From a bacterium (GTDB lineage Bacteria; Zhuqueibacterota; QNDG01; DTFT01), in assembly GCA_030372965.1 (NCBI GenBank), contig JAUCQC010000170.1:1-58029 (forward strand): a DNA stretch of 58,029 nucleotides, given 5' to 3'. A program made the translations under genes and the position numbers. Positions 29,996 through 39,637 of this stretch are shown here, piece after piece (the first letter of the stretch is position 1; the number at the start of each line of letters is the position of its first letter). The notes below the pieces were generated by a model. That model saw only the letters and a list, made by a program, of their open reading frames with translations, was not told the DNA's origin and made no database searches.

Positions 29996-30167
29996 AGGCC
30001 GGCCGGAACGGGCATCGGGGAGTCCGGCCGCTGGCCGGTTTTAATCCAGAGTCCGGTCGTCGCCCAGGACCGGCCGGGAGAAACGTGGCCGCGGCGATCC
30101 GAAAATCAGAAGGCGTGCCCGTCCGTCTTTTCGAATGGACATTCCGGGAAAAAAGGAGGTTTTCCAT

Positions 30168-31355
30168 ATGAAAATCAAAACGCATTTTTTGGGAATCCGC
30201 GGGGGGCTTCTCGCTCTTGCCGTTTTCGGAGCGTCCGGCCTCGCGGCCGCGGCAGTCACGATCCAGCTCGGGGATTACCCGGACGTCGGAACGCGCAACC
30301 GCATGGACACGGACACCACGGGCCACGCGTCCGTGGTCATCGGCCCGGCCGGGGAGAACCGGACGTGGGACTTCACCCAGGCCATTCACGGCAGGCAGAT
30401 CGGAATGGACTATGTTCTCCCTTCCGAGACGCTGTACGGCGCATCCGTTCCCGGAGCGGAGCGGGCGATCAAAACCTGGCAATGGCTGTCCGTTGACCCC
30501 GTTCCCATCGTTTTCCCGTCCGGCCTGGAAGGATTCTTTGAAGTGTATTACTATCAGAAGGCGCTTTCCACGGACGGCGTTCTTCAGGGGAACGGGATGG
30601 GCGCCGTGTCGCCCATTTATTCGGGCGGCTTCGCCTTCACCCAGCCTTGCGTTGAACTGTCCTTCCCCCTGGCTGTCGGGAAGACGTGGCTCAAGAAGTA
30701 CGAATTTTCCGCGCCCGCCACGATCGGAGCGCTGACGACCACACTGGTCACGAAGGACAGCTCCGTCATGGAAGTGGACGCCGACGGCCGCCTGACGATT
30801 CCGCTCGGCGCCTTTGACTGCGTGCGGGTGAAAGCCGTTCGGCATTTGACGCTCAAGGCGCAGTTGTTCGGCAATTACCTGACGCTGAGCGTGGACACGC
30901 TCATCGTGTACGACTGGTACGCGAAGGATGTCGGACTCATTCTCGAAGCGGCCAGCCATTCGAGTGAAAAGAATCCCCAGTTCACGGACGCGGGTTTCCT
31001 CATGCGGCTCGCCTCGACAAACGTGCCGAGCGGGGTCGAAGACGGCCGGGCCGTTCTTTTCCCGGAGCGTTGCGAGCTGAGCCAGAACCACCCGAATCCA
31101 TTCAACCCCTCCACGGCCATTCATTACCGGCTTGCCTCGGCGGGCGACGTGACCCTGACGGTGTTCGACATTCTCGGGAAACCCGTTTCCGTTCTGGAGT
31201 CGGGATTCCGGGCCGCCGGCAGTCACCGGTCGGTCTGGAACGGCACGGATGGGTCAGGCAGACGCATGCCCAGCGGCGTGTATTTCTGCAGGCTTGAAGT
31301 ACGGTCCGTGGACGGGGCGTTCACCAAGACCCGTAAAATGATACTGACCGACTGA
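30168..31355 (+). CDS. Secreted protein of unknown function with FlgD/T9SS-type C-terminus
   Basis: Signal peptide; C-terminus 'NHPNPFNPSTAIHYRLASAGDVTLTVFDILGKPV...TRKMILTD'. Confidence 0.82.
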   Translation: MKIKTHFLGIRGGLLALAVFGASGLAAAAVTIQLGDYPDVGTRNRMDTDTTGHASVVIGPAGENRTWDFTQAIHGRQIGMDYVLPSETLYGASVPGAERAIKTWQWLSVDPVPIVFPSGLEGFFEVYYYQKALSTDGVLQGNGMGAVSPIYSGGFAFTQPCVELSFPLAVGKTWLKKYEFSAPATIGALTTTLVTKDSSVMEVDADGRLTIPLGAFDCVRVKAVRHLTLKAQLFGNYLTLSVDTLIVYDWYAKDVGLILEAASHSSEKNPQFTDAGFLMRLASTNVPSGVEDGRAVLFPERCELSQNHPNPFNPSTAIHYRLASAGDVTLTVFDILGKPVSVLESGFRAAGSHRSVWNGTDGSGRRMPSGVYFCRLEVRSVDGAFTKTRKMILTD

Positions 31356-31378
31356 CCTTGCCCGGTTCCGCAGGAGAG

Positions 31379-32116
31379 ATGGCCGCGGTTCGTCTGGGGC
31401 CGGTCCCGATAGTGTGGGCGCGGCCCCGGTTCTTCCGCGGTCCGGTCCGCAATCTGCGGCCGGCCGCGCTGGCCTGCCTGCTGCTCCTGGCCGGCCGGAC
31501 GGACGCCGCGCAGTGCCGGTTCGACAGCGTCGCCGTGTCAGGGGACTCGGTGATCGTCGGGTTCGAGATGTCCGGGCTCTTCGACCGCGAGACCTTCCGC
31601 TCGCTCAGAAAGGGCATGACCGCGGGCCTGGAATACCAGATTCAGGTGTGGGGGGACCGCGACGGATGGTTCGACGCGGTCGTCGACGAGAAGGTCCTCC
31701 GGATGAAGCTCGGATACGACAATTGGGAAAGATGCTACACGGTGATGCGTCCCGGCGGAACGGCCCGGTTTCAGGAGGATACGGCCGCTGAACGGAACTG
31801 CTGCCGAATCCGCGGAATCGGCCTTGTCCGGCGCGACCGGCTGAAACCGGGGCGCACCTATCACATTCTCGTCCGCATGGTTTTCGAGCCCATGTCCGTG
31901 GAGAGCCTCCACGAGATCGGCCGCTGGCTTTCCGGGGAGGTGGACGACCTGAACGCCAAGTCGCTCAGTCGCAAGCGGTCGCCGGTCAAATCAGCCGGGG
32001 ACTGGCTTCTCGGATTCGTGGTGAACCTGTCCGGGTTCGGGGACCGCGAATTTACGGCGGAAAGCCCTCCGCTGATCGTGGAAAACGGGAACGTCCGTTT
32101 CAGTGCCGTGGAGTGA
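31379..32116 (+). CDS. Secreted protein, DUF4390-like
   Basis: Signal-like 'LRPAALACLLLLAGRTDAAQ'; beta-rich domain; family call tentative, start uncertain. Confidence 0.55.
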   Translation: MAAVRLGPVPIVWARPRFFRGPVRNLRPAALACLLLLAGRTDAAQCRFDSVAVSGDSVIVGFEMSGLFDRETFRSLRKGMTAGLEYQIQVWGDRDGWFDAVVDEKVLRMKLGYDNWERCYTVMRPGGTARFQEDTAAERNCCRIRGIGLVRRDRLKPGRTYHILVRMVFEPMSVESLHEIGRWLSGEVDDLNAKSLSRKRSPVKSAGDWLLGFVVNLSGFGDREFTAESPPLIVENGNVRFSAVE

Positions 32117-32120
32117 TTCC

Positions 32121-33107
32121 GTGACACCCGAATCCGCCGGTTTAAGCCCATCGCCGCGAAACGGCCCGGTCGCGGTCATCGACATCGGAACGAATTCCGC
32201 GCTTTTCCTGCTCGCGGAAAGGGACGGAACCGTTGTCCGGCCGATCCGGCAGGAGATCCGGACCACGCGGCTCGGCCGCGGTCTTGCATCCTCCGGCCGG
32301 ATCGGGGAGGAGGACATCGGGAGGACCGCCGCGGTTCTGATCGAGTGGAAGGAGCTGGCCCGCGCGATCGGAGCGGGATCGCCGGTGTGCACGGGCACGC
32401 AGGTGTTCAGGGCCGCGGAGAACCGCCGTGAGGCGCTGGCCGTCCTGTTCAGGGAAACGGGCCTTCAAATCGAGGTCATCCCGGAACAGGAAGAGGCGGT
32501 CTGGAGTTACATGGGTGTGGTGCACGGCCTGGCTGAACCGGGACGGGCAGTCGTCATGGACATCGGGGGCGGGAGCACGGAATGGGCGCAGGGTGACGGT
32601 CCGGCCCTCCGGCGGAGCCGCAGTGTGCCCATCGGAGCGTTGACCCTGACGGAAAAGCACCTCAGGAGCGATCCGCCCGGGCCGGACGAGCTGGACGCCA
32701 TGACGGACGAAATCCGTTCCGCGTTCGCGCCGGACATCCCGATGCAGGATCCGTCCGTTCCCTTCATCTGCGTGGGAGGAACGGCGACGACTCTGGCCGG
32801 CCTGGAGCTCGGTCTCGAACGCTACGATGCCGCGGTTGTGGACGGGACGGAACTGGCCGTGCGGATCGTGCGGAACTGGGCGGAGAAACTGGCCGGACAG
32901 TCGAGGGCCGAACGCCGCTGGACCGTGCGGGCCTTCGGTCCGGACCGGGCGGACATTCTTCCGGCCGGACTCTTCATCCTTCTGTCCTGGATGGAATCGG
33001 CCGGAATTCCGACGGTGCGGGTGAGCGACCGCGGCCTGCGTTTCGGAATCGCGGCCAGGGAACTGGGCCTGGCGCGGCCGGCCGCTTTCCCGTCCGGGAA
33101 CGGCTGA
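32121..33107 (+). CDS. Ppx/GppA family exopolyphosphatase/phosphatase
   Basis: 'VAVIDIGTNSALFLLAERDG', 'AVVMDIGGGSTEWAQ', 'FICVGGTATTLAGLELG'. GTG start (32121 or 32103). Confidence 0.92.
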   Translation: MTPESAGLSPSPRNGPVAVIDIGTNSALFLLAERDGTVVRPIRQEIRTTRLGRGLASSGRIGEEDIGRTAAVLIEWKELARAIGAGSPVCTGTQVFRAAENRREALAVLFRETGLQIEVIPEQEEAVWSYMGVVHGLAEPGRAVVMDIGGGSTEWAQGDGPALRRSRSVPIGALTLTEKHLRSDPPGPDELDAMTDEIRSAFAPDIPMQDPSVPFICVGGTATTLAGLELGLERYDAAVVDGTELAVRIVRNWAEKLAGQSRAERRWTVRAFGPDRADILPAGLFILLSWMESAGIPTVRVSDRGLRFGIAARELGLARPAAFPSGNG

Positions 33108-33179: not shown

Positions 33180-35048
33180 ATGAAAAGCATGATCCGGTTT
33201 GCACTGGTTTTCGCGGCCATAGTCCCTGCCTGCATCGGGGCCGATTCCGGCCGCGAGGCCGCTGGAATCGACGCTCCTCCCCGGCACGGGGAAAACATCG
33301 CCTTCCGGCTGAATCCGGCCCTGATTCCCGACGGTCTGGCCGAGGGCGAGACCCCCATGCTTCAGGTTTTCCCCCGACTGCCCGATCCCCCCTTCGAAAT
33401 CCCCATGACCCGGACCACCGGACTGTGGAGAGCCTGGTACGGCCTGAAGGACACCAGCATCAAGGCGATTTTCTTCGCGTTCGTAACCGTTGATTCGTCC
33501 GGGACACGGACCCGGCCCGACCTCGGGCAGGACCTGTTTGACGCGCCGGTCGTCGACGCGGCGGGCCGTCCCGTTTACGGCGCCTACGAGGCCATCGGCA
33601 TATCCCACACCGGCATCTCGGACCTGAGGCCCGAAAACCTGTCCCTGGCCATCGAGGCGTTTCGCAGGGAACTCCGGTTTCATCCGGACAATTATTCGGG
33701 CCGTCTCCTGCTCGCGTCCGCCCGCCTGAAGAACAGCGACTTCAGCGAGGCGGCACGCCGCAGTGTCGAGGCGGAAATCGATTCCGTGCTGGCTTCGGGA
33801 AAGGACCGCGAGTCCGCGGTGCGTTTTGCCGCCAGCGCCTACCGGATGATGGGCCGGACGGAAAAGGCGGAAGCCCTGGAGAAGTCCCTGGCCGACCGGG
33901 ACCCGAAAGGCGATCTCGCGGCGCGCAAGCGGTTCACGCAGATACTGGGAATCGAGGACAGGGACGAGAGAATCCGGAGCCTGGAGCGGTTTGTCGCAGA
34001 TTTCCCCGGGTCCCCGTTCGTTGAGCCGGCCCTGAGCCAGATCGTTTCGGCGGTCATCGAGACCGGCGACAGCCGGGCCATGGCGGCCGCGGGCGACCGC
34101 CTGCTCCGCGGCGCGTCGACTCTGACCGGGGCCCACGGGCTCGCCGGACTGGCCGGCGTGTTCGCGGACCTCGGAATCGAGCCGGACCGCGCCCTGTCCT
34201 ACGCGGGCCGGGCCATGGAAATTCTGGCCGCGGAAAAAGCCGCCGGAGGGGGATCGGCGGAAGCGGCCGAGGAGCGTGAAGAGGCCGAGTCCAGATTTCG
34301 GGCCGTGCTCGGCTGGGTGCATGTCCAGAGGGGCGAAATCGTTCCGGCCGTCTCCGAACTTCAGGAGGCCGTGAAGGGCCCCCTGCAGGGCAAGGCGTTC
34401 TACCATCTGGGCATCGCGCTGGAAAAGGCCGGCCGTCTGGAGGACGCGCTCGTCCAGTACGGCCGCGCGGCCGCCTTTTCCGGGGACGTCGGAGACGCGG
34501 CTTACGCGGCATTCCGGTCGCTCTGGAAAAACACAGGCCGCGACACGCTGCTGGCGGACGCGTCCCTGGACGAGCAGGCCCGGTGGGTCGAAACCGCCAG
34601 CCGGGAGCGCATACTCGCCAGGCGCTCGGTGCGGCCCGCGCCCGACTTTCTGCTCGAGGACGCGCGGGGCGGACGCGTCCGTCTTTCGGACCAGCAGGGG
34701 AATGTGGTTCTGCTCTGCTTCTGGGCGTCCTGGAGCCAGTCTTCCATGAAACTCATGGAGGAGCTCGACGCGCTGGCCGGCCAGTACGGCCGCAGCATTC
34801 TATTCCTGACCGTGGCCATGGACCGCAATAAAACCGATGTCCGGAGCGCCGTCCGGAAGAACGACATCGTTCTTCCCGTCCTCCTGAACAGCGGCATGGA
34901 GCAGGCGTACCGCCTGTCCGGCGTGCCGGCCGTTTTCCTGATCGATCGGGACGGCCGGATCCATTTCACGCACATGGGTTTCCGCAGGGACATCAATTCC
35001 ATCCTGTCCGTTGAAATCGACGATCTGCTGGGGGCCACGGCCCTATGA
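33180..35048 (+). CDS. TPR protein with C-terminal TlpA/thioredoxin-like domain lacking CxxC
   Basis: Signal peptide, TPR region, 'PAPDFLLEDARGGRVRLSDQQGNVVLLCFWASWSQSSMKLMEEL...GVPAVFLIDRDG'. Confidence 0.85.
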   Translation: MKSMIRFALVFAAIVPACIGADSGREAAGIDAPPRHGENIAFRLNPALIPDGLAEGETPMLQVFPRLPDPPFEIPMTRTTGLWRAWYGLKDTSIKAIFFAFVTVDSSGTRTRPDLGQDLFDAPVVDAAGRPVYGAYEAIGISHTGISDLRPENLSLAIEAFRRELRFHPDNYSGRLLLASARLKNSDFSEAARRSVEAEIDSVLASGKDRESAVRFAASAYRMMGRTEKAEALEKSLADRDPKGDLAARKRFTQILGIEDRDERIRSLERFVADFPGSPFVEPALSQIVSAVIETGDSRAMAAAGDRLLRGASTLTGAHGLAGLAGVFADLGIEPDRALSYAGRAMEILAAEKAAGGGSAEAAEEREEAESRFRAVLGWVHVQRGEIVPAVSELQEAVKGPLQGKAFYHLGIALEKAGRLEDALVQYGRAAAFSGDVGDAAYAAFRSLWKNTGRDTLLADASLDEQARWVETASRERILARRSVRPAPDFLLEDARGGRVRLSDQQGNVVLLCFWASWSQSSMKLMEELDALAGQYGRSILFLTVAMDRNKTDVRSAVRKNDIVLPVLLNSGMEQAYRLSGVPAVFLIDRDGRIHFTHMGFRRDINSILSVEIDDLLGATAL

Positions 35049-35911
35049 CCTGGTGCTATGCCTCTGACCTGCACGGCCGAGAGAGTCTGTACCTGGAGCT
35101 GGCCGGCCTGGCGGAGTCGAGGCATTGCGGCACCGTGATACTGGGGGGCGACCTGCTCCCGAGAAAGGGGCGCGGTCCGGCCGGTCTCGATTCGCAGGCC
35201 GGATTCGCGGCCGCGTTTCTGAAGGATTTCGCGATCCGGATTCGCGACAAAGCCGGCGCCCGCCTGTACGCCATACCGGGCAATGACGACTGGATGGGCG
35301 CGTTGCCGTCCCTCCGCGGCCTGGCGTCCGAGGGCCTGATTCTGCTGCCGGCCGACCGGTCCGTTCCCGCGGACGGCGGTTTCTTCCTGCGCGGTTATTC
35401 CTTCGTTCCTCCGACTCCTTTCCTGCTCAAGGATTTTGAAAAACGGGATCTCTCCTCGGACGCGCCGCCTTCGTCCCCGGGCCGCATCGCCGTGACTGTG
35501 GACGGACGCGTCATGGAAACCGACGCCGCTTCCTTCCTGACGGGACGGACCGCGATCGAAGACGACCTCGCGGCCTGGACATTGGGGGAGGAAAGCCGGA
35601 GAACGGTTTGCGTCATGCATGGGCCGCCGTATGGCACCTCCCTCGACAGACTGGCGGACGGAAGGCCCGCGGGAAGCCGCGCGGTGCGCGATTTTCTGAC
35701 GCGGGAGAATCCCCTGCTGTCCCTGCACGGCCACATCCATGAATCCGCGGACGCGTCAGGCGCGTGGGCGCAATTCATCGGCCGGACCCTGTCCGTCAAC
35801 CCGGGGCAGAACGGGGGCGCCCTGTCCGCGGTGTGGTTCGATCCCGCCGACCCGGCCGGATCCATGACGCACTCCCTGCACGGCCCATTCGGGCCGCGGA
35901 GCCGTTCATGA
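35045..35911 (+). CDS. Metallophosphoesterase
   Basis: 'ASDLHGRESLYLEL', 'VILGGDLLP', 'IPGNDDW', 'CVMHGPPYG', 'LHGHIHES'. Confidence 0.92.
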   Translation: MTWCYASDLHGRESLYLELAGLAESRHCGTVILGGDLLPRKGRGPAGLDSQAGFAAAFLKDFAIRIRDKAGARLYAIPGNDDWMGALPSLRGLASEGLILLPADRSVPADGGFFLRGYSFVPPTPFLLKDFEKRDLSSDAPPSSPGRIAVTVDGRVMETDAASFLTGRTAIEDDLAAWTLGEESRRTVCVMHGPPYGTSLDRLADGRPAGSRAVRDFLTRENPLLSLHGHIHESADASGAWAQFIGRTLSVNPGQNGGALSAVWFDPADPAGSMTHSLHGPFGPRSRS

Positions 35912-37380
35912 AAGTCCCGCCGCGTGGCGCCGCTCTCCTGCTTTTTCTGCTTGCCGTTCCTTCGTCCGGCCGCTCACCGATGTCCTTCCGTTCCGTCGTG
36001 CTTCGGTTCGGCGGTCCCGCGTCTCTTCCGGTGAACGCGGACGCGGACGGGGACGGATGGGCCGACCTGACCGTGGCGTGGCGCGGCCCCGAAGACCCGG
36101 CCGGAACCCTGGCGTTTTTCCGGAACCGGCACGGTTCCTTCGTTTCCACGCCCGATTCATCCATGCTCCTGCCCGCGGACGCGGTTCTTTTCGATCGGGT
36201 CCCCGGGCCCGGGGGCCTCGGATCATCGATCCGGATACTGACTCCGTCCGGTGTCCGTTCCGGCCGCTTTGGGGAATCCGGGCTCTCCGGGTTTTCGACG
36301 GACACGGTTTTCACGGTGCGCGCCGCGTTCCCCGGAACCGCAGCGGACCGGCCCGCGGCATGGCCCTTTGCCTCCGCGCTGTCCGGACCCGGGGATCCGA
36401 TTTTTATCATCCCCGCGGAGGACGGTCTCCGTTTTTTCAGCCCCGGACGGCCCGAATTGGCGGACTCCGGTGCGATCCCGGGCGGTTTCCGACTGTTCCG
36501 CTCCGCGATCCGGTCCGGGGCGCCAGTTTATTCGTTCAGCCTTCCGGTTCCGGCCCCCTGCGACTGGGATGGGGACGGGACAGGAGACGCGGTCCTGACA
36601 CTCGACGGCGACGCCGCGTTGATCTTCCGCGACAGCGCTTCGGTCCGAAGCGACGCAGAGCCCGCGTTCGAGTCCGGATGGGGCGGAGACCCTGCCGGCC
36701 GCCGTCGAAACCGGGATTATGAATTCCGGGATTTCAACGCGGACGGACTCACCGACGTGCTGGTCATCGAAGCCCCGGCCCAGGGGCTCCTCACGCCGCC
36801 GGGGTGGGCGCGCCTGCACCTCAACCGAAAATCCGGATGGGATCCGGCTCCGGATCAGGTTCTGGTGCGGAACCGTTTCTTCGGGGACCGGGCCGTCGCG
36901 GATTTCAACGGCGACGGCCGGCCGGATCTGTGCCTCGTTTCCCTGGAATCGAGCCCCGCGGACATCATCCGGTACGGCATGACGCGGCGCGTGCGGAACC
37001 GTTTTGATTTTCACTTCTGCCCGCCCGACGGCCGGTTTGACCCGAAACCCGACCGGTCCGTGACCGTCGCGTTCAACCGCACCCTGTCCGCGCTTTTTTC
37101 GGAACCGCTCGTCGTCCGGCCGTTTGCCGGAGATTTCGACGGGGACGGAAGGGATGATGTCGGGCTGTGGGCTTCTGAGGACGAATTGCGTCTCATTCCG
37201 GCCGGAGCCAGGGGCCCGATGGACGTCCGGCAAACCGCGCGTCTCCGGTTTCCGAGAACGGATCATGTCCGCATCGGGGACCTGAACCGCGACGGATGTT
37301 CCGATCTCGTGCTGTGCTACCCGGACGGGCCTCCGGAACCGTCCTGCGTGCTGCTTCTCAGCGCGGGCGGGGACAGGTGA
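35908..37380 (+). CDS. Secreted FG-GAP/VCBS-repeat beta-propeller protein
   Basis: Repeated DADGDGWAD, DWDGDGTGD, DFNADGLTD, DFNGDGRPD, DFDGDGRDD, DLNRDGCSD; signal peptide. Confidence 0.85.
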   Translation: MKVPPRGAALLLFLLAVPSSGRSPMSFRSVVLRFGGPASLPVNADADGDGWADLTVAWRGPEDPAGTLAFFRNRHGSFVSTPDSSMLLPADAVLFDRVPGPGGLGSSIRILTPSGVRSGRFGESGLSGFSTDTVFTVRAAFPGTAADRPAAWPFASALSGPGDPIFIIPAEDGLRFFSPGRPELADSGAIPGGFRLFRSAIRSGAPVYSFSLPVPAPCDWDGDGTGDAVLTLDGDAALIFRDSASVRSDAEPAFESGWGGDPAGRRRNRDYEFRDFNADGLTDVLVIEAPAQGLLTPPGWARLHLNRKSGWDPAPDQVLVRNRFFGDRAVADFNGDGRPDLCLVSLESSPADIIRYGMTRRVRNRFDFHFCPPDGRFDPKPDRSVTVAFNRTLSALFSEPLVVRPFAGDFDGDGRDDVGLWASEDELRLIPAGARGPMDVRQTARLRFPRTDHVRIGDLNRDGCSDLVLCYPDGPPEPSCVLLLSAGGDR

Positions 37381-38675
37381 CACGCGCCGAATTTCATTTT
37401 CACCGTTTTACCCCGTTCCGGTCGGGGCTGGTTTTCGCGCTTGGTTGCATGCTTGCGGCTTCGGGCGTTTCACGGGCCTGGGAGGCAGACGGATCCGATC
37501 CATCCCGGCCGGCTGTTTTTCTGTACGGGAACAGCCACACGGCCGGGTTCGTCGTGCTCCGCGAGATGACGGATATCCCTTCCGGTGTTCCGCCCGCGCC
37601 CTGGCTGAAGAGAAAAGCGGACCAGCTGGAACGCATCGGACCCTTCCGGACCGCGGTGGTGGTGGCGGTGCGGGATTCAACGGGCCCGGTCCCGCGTCTG
37701 GCCGTCCTGCTCAGGGAGAAAGGGCGCTGGTCGATCGACCCGGCCCTGTCCTATGACGGCATTTTCGGGTGGACCGCGGGTCTGGCCGCGGTCCGGTCCA
37801 ATCTGTTCGGCCGGAACCAGAGGCTCAGGGCCGGATTCAGGACCGGCGGCCTGGACAAGGCCGGGATTTCCTGGACCGATCCATGGTTCGGCGGCCGTCT
37901 CCGGCTGTTCGCGGAGATGGAAGCCGGCCACGCTTCCTATCCCTACCGGTATCCGGACTACAGGCCTGTTTTCCGCGTGGTCTCGAACTCGGCTTCGGCC
38001 GCGCTGGGCCGCGGTTTCGGCCCCGCGCTCCGCGCGGGCTACCGCCGGACCTGGGAGAACGCGGAAGCAGGCGATCCCGCGGCCCTGGTTTCCGGAGGAG
38101 GGAAAGACCGGTTCGTTTCGGACGAATGGTTTATGCGCTGGGATATCCGCGACAGGCCCGAGTATCCCATGTCCGGCCTGTTCGCGGAAGCGGGCAGGCA
38201 ATGGACGGAGGAAACCGGATCCGGCAGGCGTTTCAGCCGCTCCTATTTCGACTGCCGGGCGTACGCGCCCGCGGCCGCGGGGGCGCGTCTCGCGCTGCAG
38301 GCCTCGGGTCAGTTTCTGGACGGGCGCGTGCCCGTGGTCAAGCGGCTCCACTGGGGCGGGTCGAGCACCCTCCGCGGATACGACAGCGGCATTCTCGCCG
38401 GCGACCGCCTGCTGGCGTTCTGCGCGGAAATGCGCTTCCCCGTTCTGCTGGAGCCCGATGTGCTCGGCGCCCGGAACGCGGGCGTCTTCGGCGTCTTTTT
38501 CGCGGACTGCGCCTCGATCCGCTTCTCGGAGAAATCCCGCAATCCCGCGCCGAACGCCGGCGCGGCCGGAGCCGGCTTTCACTTCGTCTGGGACACCATC
38601 GTTCTCCGGGCGGAGTGGGGCGTGCGCGCGGACGGGGGCCTTTTCGTGACGTCGGCGTCGGGGGTGAAGTTTTGA
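37377..38675 (+). CDS. Omp85/BamA-TamA-like outer-membrane barrel with short POTRA region
   Basis: GTG start overlapping stop; 'GNSHTAGFVVLREMTDIPSGV' POTRA-like; 'WGGSSTLRGYDSG' (VRGF-like loop); terminal Phe. Confidence 0.8.
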   Translation: MTRAEFHFHRFTPFRSGLVFALGCMLAASGVSRAWEADGSDPSRPAVFLYGNSHTAGFVVLREMTDIPSGVPPAPWLKRKADQLERIGPFRTAVVVAVRDSTGPVPRLAVLLREKGRWSIDPALSYDGIFGWTAGLAAVRSNLFGRNQRLRAGFRTGGLDKAGISWTDPWFGGRLRLFAEMEAGHASYPYRYPDYRPVFRVVSNSASAALGRGFGPALRAGYRRTWENAEAGDPAALVSGGGKDRFVSDEWFMRWDIRDRPEYPMSGLFAEAGRQWTEETGSGRRFSRSYFDCRAYAPAAAGARLALQASGQFLDGRVPVVKRLHWGGSSTLRGYDSGILAGDRLLAFCAEMRFPVLLEPDVLGARNAGVFGVFFADCASIRFSEKSRNPAPNAGAAGAGFHFVWDTIVLRAEWGVRADGGLFVTSASGVKF

Positions 38676-38778
38676 CAAAAACAGGATATTCCATCAACGA
38701 TTGAAGATCGGCGATTTCAGAGAGTTCGAATAAACGGAGTCCCGTTGGTTTTCAATCTGAGATCCGCATTCCGCTGAC

Positions 38779-38899: not shown

Positions 38900-39637
38900 A
38901 TGGCGCACATCGAGTTCTTCTATGCCCCCCCGGGGGGGATCGCCGGGGATGAGATCCGCTTTCCTCCGGACGAGTCGAAGCACATCGCCGTGGTCCTGCG
39001 GCATCGGGTTGGGGACACGGTATGGGCCGCGGACGGCGCCGGGACGGCGCATGAAGTCACGCTGGTTTCCGTGGGCCGCAGGGAGGTGAGGGGCCGCATA
39101 CTCCGGTCCGAAAGGGGGGCGGGCGAACCCGCGACCGCGGTCACGCTGGCGGCCGGTGTGCTGAAAGGCGACCGTTTCGACTGGCTCGTCGAAAAAGCGG
39201 TGGAACTCGGGGTTTCCCGCGTCGCTCCATTCCTTTCCCAGGGGTCGGCCGTGGGAAGCCCGTCCTCGGCCAAGACCGAGCGATGGCGGAAGATCGCGCT
39301 CGCGGCCATGAAGCAGAGCGGACGGTGCTTGATGCCCGAGATCGAGGAGGCGGTTCAGCTGGAGACGGTTATCCGGCGCGCGGCGAACCACGAACTCCGC
39401 GTCGCCGCGCACGCGGGTCCGGACTGCGTTTCCCTGCGGGACGCGGTGCGCGTCGTTCCGTCCCCGGTGAGGCGGAGCTTTCTGGTCACAGGGCCCGAGG
39501 GCGGATTCTTTCCGGGCGAAATCGAGGCGCTCAGGCGCGCGGGATTCGCGATCGTGTCGCTGGGGCCCCGCCGCCTGCGGGCCGAGACCGCGGCACTGGC
39601 CCTGCTGGCGCAGACGTTCGCGCTGACCGGGGAATGA
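38900..39637 (+). CDS. rsmE: 16S rRNA m3U1498 methyltransferase
   Basis: 'LAAGVLKGDRFDWLVEKAVELGVSRVAPFLSQ', 'VTGPEGGFFPGEIEALRRAGF', 'SLGPRRLRAETAALALLAQ'. Confidence 0.95.
   Translation: MAHIEFFYAPPGGIAGDEIRFPPDESKHIAVVLRHRVGDTVWAADGAGTAHEVTLVSVGRREVRGRILRSERGAGEPATAVTLAAGVLKGDRFDWLVEKAVELGVSRVAPFLSQGSAVGSPSSAKTERWRKIALAAMKQSGRCLMPEIEEAVQLETVIRRAANHELRVAAHAGPDCVSLRDAVRVVPSPVRRSFLVTGPEGGFFPGEIEALRRAGFAIVSLGPRRLRAETAALALLAQTFALTGE

Follow-up and report, generated by a model that had tools for sequence, protein, structure and literature searches.

A candidate propeller–Omp85 pair at the core of an order-specific envelope operon in uncultured KSB1-type bacteria

A secreted FG-GAP beta-propeller and an Omp85-type barrel (hereafter Omp85a) are the likeliest core of a longer block of envelope genes, since gene overlap, adjacency, single-copy occurrence and co-divergence agree on these two products. 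On comparative sequence grounds, the block is an envelope operon confined to one order and passed on by vertical descent, and the pair at its core may be an accessory outer-membrane assembly or translocation system, a reading held with slightly less than even confidence. The remaining genes of the block are, as judged from their distribution, operon company, among which a metallophosphoesterase (MPE) and a TPR/thioredoxin-like protein (TPR/Trx) appear as looser passengers.

Gene organization and conservation of the block

The locus lies in a 58,029-nucleotide stretch of DNA (the window), which is one contig of a source assembly of 3.3 Mb in 304 contigs. Four same-strand ORFs at 33180-38675 (+) are chained by three −4 nt ATGA/GTGA junctions, with ATG, ATG, ATG and GTG as start codons in ORF order. 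The first ORF (33180..35048, +) encodes the secreted TPR/Trx, assigned by Pfam, with an N-domain, TPR repeats and a TlpA-like domain reading SxxS, and its stop shares an ATGA (35045..35048, +) with the start of the calcineurin-like MPE (35045..35911, +; PF00149), which has no signal peptide. A second ATGA (35908..35911, +) combines the MPE stop with the start of the propeller (35908..37380, +), a secreted protein with an integrin-alpha-like fold, and a GTGA (37377..37380, +), kept in 9/10 genomes, combines the propeller stop with the start of Omp85a (37377..38675, +), which carries a signal peptide, one POTRA, a 16-strand barrel and an RGY motif; the last two products were assigned by Pfam and structural models. 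The ORFs, their coordinates, the three 4-nt overlaps and the product classes described in an earlier sequence-only reading of this DNA were all reproduced from the window sequence and Pfam. The four-gene arrangement is beyond chance, because it recurs in six families whose proteins share about 20-45% identity. A search for sigma-70 promoters gave no match and is uninformative for this taxon.

Comparison of 12 genomes of uncultured KSB1-type bacteria, which belong to a single order and represent 10 genera in 6 families, defined the conserved block as DUF4390–Ppx/GppA–TPR/Trx–(MPE)–FG-GAP–Omp85a–(Omp85b)–RsmE. The unit therefore exceeds the four ORFs, as the syntenic first gene, DUF4390 (31358..32116, +, start uncertain; PF14334, 2.6e-12), and a gene for a cytosolic Ppx/GppA-type exopolyphosphatase (32103..33107, +; PF02541, 2e-45; TIGR03706, 3e-60, below its cut-off) lie directly upstream, overlap each other by 14 nt and are syntenic in relatives. 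The guess that the upstream ppx/gppA gene belongs to the set was thus borne out at the level of synteny, and the genes neighbour each other in relatives, so that the finding by which the sequence-only reading would have been refuted, a lack of co-localisation, did not materialise. The downstream housekeeping boundary is an RsmE-like rRNA methyltransferase gene (38900..39637, +; cluster C1), named by sequence and context, which is a phylum-wide neighbour of 1-POTRA Omp85 genes, and a housekeeping gene of the phosphomannomutase/GlmM type flanks the block upstream. Mobility or recent acquisition of the block was rejected, given the order-wide synteny and the housekeeping neighbours. A GTDB-wide scan of 84,980 species with a TPR/Trx profile detected eight loci of the overlapping genes (the cassette), all of them in this group and in uncultured MAGs. 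Immediately before the block, positions 30135-31355 of the window encode a secreted protein whose C-terminus carries a type IX sorting domain (TIGR04183, above cut-off).

The propeller and the barrel

The propeller matches Pfam FG-GAP_3 (3e-18) and contains six D.[DN].DG..D motifs of the Ca type at residues 45, 219, 275, 332, 409 and 458; shuffles of its sequence contained 0.008 such motifs on average and 1 at most. Its model (pLDDT 75, built from few sequences) matches integrin-alpha propellers. Inspection of the N-terminus revealed no lipobox Cys, Pfam and NCBIfam no type IX sorting domain, and neither resource a TPS domain, with FG-GAP repeats as the only Pfam match and a sub-threshold XAC2610 match as the only one in NCBIfam.

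Omp85a matches Pfam Omp85 (PF01103, 3e-16). Its AlphaFold model (mean pLDDT 83) comprises one POTRA and 16 barrel strands and finds BamA and TamA as the best solved-structure matches, which identifies the last gene as an Omp85 and bears out the one-POTRA, Omp85-type barrel of the sequence-only reading, including the POTRA count. The Pfam POTRA profile gives no score in the window protein and scores above cut-off in three relatives (L039, L043 and L047), and the L6 RG(Y/F) motif is intact, with R333 and G334 nearly invariant. Sequence and model place Omp85a in the Omp85 superfamily as a BamA-like member with putative insertase or translocase activity. BamA itself is encoded elsewhere in the genome with five POTRA stretches (G000:C82), Omp85a being an additional paralogue. 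In the tree, Omp85a sequences group in a single clade (SH-aLRT 99) that excludes the 1-POTRA Omp85b found phylum-wide; Omp85b adjoins RsmE in most of the phylum's genomes examined, often with a POTRA-less Omp85 as its upstream neighbour. The window genus has no Omp85b, and no remnant of a second Omp85 was found between positions 38676 and 38899 of the window. In other orders (L051-L070), a POTRA-less and a 1-POTRA Omp85 stand in tandem, often before RsmE, a pair that recurs across much of the phylum.

FG-GAP and Omp85a are present in one copy each per genome, the full-length FG-GAP gene in 12/12 genomes of the order, and are neighbours in 11/12, the exception being G008 with the pair on different contigs. 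Their 4-nt overlap (ATGA, GTGA or TTGA) is found in 9/10 junctions at about 25-30% protein identity. In a co-divergence analysis of 8 genomes, the two proteins gave a raw rho of 0.83 and, with RsmE as control, a partial correlation of 0.69 (permutation P 0.001; leave-one-out range 0.49-0.76); RsmE was the single control gene, and it corrects for genome-wide rate differences only in part. The partial correlation was 0.08 for TPR/Trx and Omp85a and −0.32 for FG-GAP and TPR/Trx. Omp85b correlates too (0.54), and FG-GAP tracks it less strongly than Omp85a. Over 8 genomes and one control gene, these values are suggestive, not proof, of co-evolution between propeller and barrel. The link between these two products that the sequence-only reading had proposed is thereby strengthened, as the propeller is the product most tightly linked to the barrel by adjacency, overlap and co-divergence.

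In three other families, full-length FG-GAP homologues lie among different genes, with no POTRA-Omp85 alongside. These sister-order loci rule out that FG-GAP is obligately tied to an Omp85 and indicate that the propeller can function without Omp85a. At one sister-order locus (L136 5770-9945, a single case), a patatin-Omp85 (PlpD-like) gene is located downstream of an FG-GAP homologue.

Proposed role of the pair and alternatives

All characterised Omp85 proteins except PlpD assemble or translocate proteins (PMC11116518). Since characterised Omp85 proteins insert or translocate proteins and BamB sets the precedent of a propeller serving a POTRA-bearing barrel, an assembly or translocation pair is favoured over both an exported propeller and mere co-transcription. 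For this pair, the dedicated secreted propeller would dock on the POTRA or the barrel loops of Omp85a, and together, much as BamB works with BamA, they would insert or translocate some of the outer-membrane or surface proteins. The redox-dead TPR/Trx would have been recruited to the operon and may serve in the periplasm as a scaffold or binding protein, and MPE and Ppx would be cytosolic enzymes on the common transcript, outside the complex. In its fullest form, put forward still more tentatively, the proposal is of an undescribed assembly or translocation machine: Omp85a, with its one POTRA, and the integrin-like propeller that serves it would make up an obligate complex in the outer membrane, assisted by the redox-dead Trx/TPR scaffold.

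BamB is an eight-bladed PQQ-like lipoprotein propeller on the five-POTRA BamA. In the BAM complex (BamA-BamB(-BamD)), too, a beta-propeller and, in a loose parallel, a TPR protein accompany an Omp85, but the cassette propeller is of the integrin type without a lipobox, its barrel has one POTRA, and the genes are unlinked to the BamA locus. In BAM, where BamB is the propeller serving a POTRA-bearing barrel, the proposed contact is the POTRA2-3 region of BamA (PMC3506653); Omp85a, with its single POTRA, has no such region, which counts against the pair.

An unlikely alternative, modelled on two-partner secretion (type Vb), is that Omp85a acts as a dedicated translocator for the propeller, which as its cargo would reach the cell surface and act there as a lectin- or integrin-like adhesin. 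The gene order is that of two-partner secretion, with the secreted-partner gene directly upstream of and overlapping the Omp85 gene, and the propeller not only correlates with the barrel but also evolves fastest, at a median identity of 0.24 (Omp85a 0.32, TPR/Trx 0.34), a rate that would suit a surface protein; it also has no type IX sorting domain by which it could be exported otherwise. TpsB proteins, however, have two POTRAs and TpsA proteins a TPS domain. Omp85a has one POTRA, and the propeller is a compact fold rather than a beta-helix and carries no TPS domain; moreover, the propeller is limited to one full-length copy per genome and has full-length homologues in sister orders without such a barrel. 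The precedent of PlpD, whose attached enzyme domain stays periplasmic and is not exported, points the same way (PMC11116518).

Equally unlikely is that the block joins envelope, phosphate and housekeeping genes by co-transcription alone, that its products share no complex and that its synteny reflects vertical operon inheritance. Such a string would accommodate the housekeeping flanks (RsmE and the phosphomannomutase/GlmM-type gene), the breaks that differ between G007 and G008, the coming and going of MPE and TPR/Trx, and the different neighbours of TPR/Trx and FG-GAP in sister orders, but adjacency and overlap of FG-GAP and Omp85a persist across 6 families in which other junctions have come apart, and correlated divergence is seen specifically between propeller and barrels.

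Comparison with other Omp85 architectures

Several Omp85 subfamilies bear propeller or metallophosphoesterase domains, and most of the ten subfamilies have, to our knowledge, no known function. The BamA-like Omp85 subfamily, composed of a barrel with 1-3 POTRAs, always occurs beside a true BamA (PMC4104836). Like that subfamily (Heinz and Lithgow 2014), Omp85a is a POTRA barrel additional to BamA, but its gene overlaps that of an FG-GAP propeller and its clade is confined to one order. WD40-Omp85 and PF00149-Omp85 (Metallo-Omp85) proteins, catalogued in 2014, have the propeller or PF00149 domain at the N-terminus of the barrel protein itself, where it replaces the POTRAs (PMC4104836). Like accessory domains, a beta-propeller and a PF00149 metallophosphoesterase, are thus tied to an Omp85 barrel in both cases; in the cassette and its relatives, however, they are separate ORFs, the barrel keeps its POTRA, the propeller is FG-GAP rather than WD40, and MPE has no signal peptide. 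The Bacteroidota BAM complex shows that an Omp85 can have accessory subunits particular to one lineage; propeller, thioredoxin and TPR go unmentioned in the main text of that paper (PMC12611786).

The literature search found no paper joining FG-GAP with Omp85 or BamA, or KSB1 with Omp85, and the family resources and literature searched contained no description of the gene set. All of the domains are known, and the unfused, overlapping operon of FG-GAP, redox-dead TPR/Trx and POTRA-Omp85 fits no architecture catalogued in PMC4104836. If the proposal is true, the pair would be one more outer-membrane machine particular to its lineage, in a diderm phylum that has been little studied. With POTRA-Omp85, propeller and phosphoesterase as separate, removable genes and with signs of co-evolution between propeller and barrel, the operon offers a testable pair for the acquisition of accessory subunits by Omp85 proteins.

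Looser members of the block

MPE matches Pfam Metallophos (PF00149, 1.5e-5), and D8, H10, D36, N80, H192, H228 and H230 are invariant in an alignment of homologues, every metal ligand of the motifs DxH, GD, GN(D/H), H and GHxH being kept. Its N-terminus is not hydrophobic, and the protein is probably cytosolic; the closest solved structure by profile is the uncharacterised aq_1956. MPE is absent from the cassette in 5/12 genomes (G003, G004, G005, G009 and G010), among which G004, G005 and G009 encode a divergent copy elsewhere, and it is seldom found outside the order. A divergent subgroup of the MPE family with a PPTPF motif adjoins large cluster-C17 ORFs in three genomes (L038, L041 and L048).

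TPR/Trx matches Pfam AhpC-TSA (9e-13) in addition to TPR repeats. Its C-terminal domain shares the fold of the TlpA/ResA thiol-disulfide oxidoreductases, which carry CxxC, whereas the corresponding position reads W518-S519-Q-S-S522 in the window protein and WSxx(S/A), without CxxC, in 11/11 cassette copies, which form one clade. Ten full-length homologues from other orders have CxxC. With CxxC replaced by SxxS/SxxA, no redox chemistry is expected, and the cassette protein is thus expected to be redox-dead. The block of G003 lacks both TPR/Trx and MPE and retains the remaining genes, and the block breaks after MPE in G007 and after FG-GAP in G008.

The single four-protein envelope module of the sequence-only reading is not supported, and one four-protein export complex was rejected as the best reading: MPE has no signal peptide and is missing in 5/12 genomes, TPR/Trx is missing in G003, has another context in sister families and does not co-evolve with the barrel, the two vary independently, and TPR/Trx and FG-GAP homologues occur without Omp85a, the propeller lacking a 1-POTRA Omp85 neighbour in other orders.

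Outside the order, full-length TPR/Trx homologues, which in sister orders have no Omp85a with them, are CxxC enzymes or belong to a second redox-dead clade in an unrelated gene context. SxxS as the cassette's own invention was rejected on account of this second CxxC-less clade, found in two other families of the same phylum (L099 3572-5452; L110, L112-L114 and L117). Its context is mostly DUF2520-PHP-TPR/Trx-dGTPase-CbiO, again with phosphohydrolases alongside.
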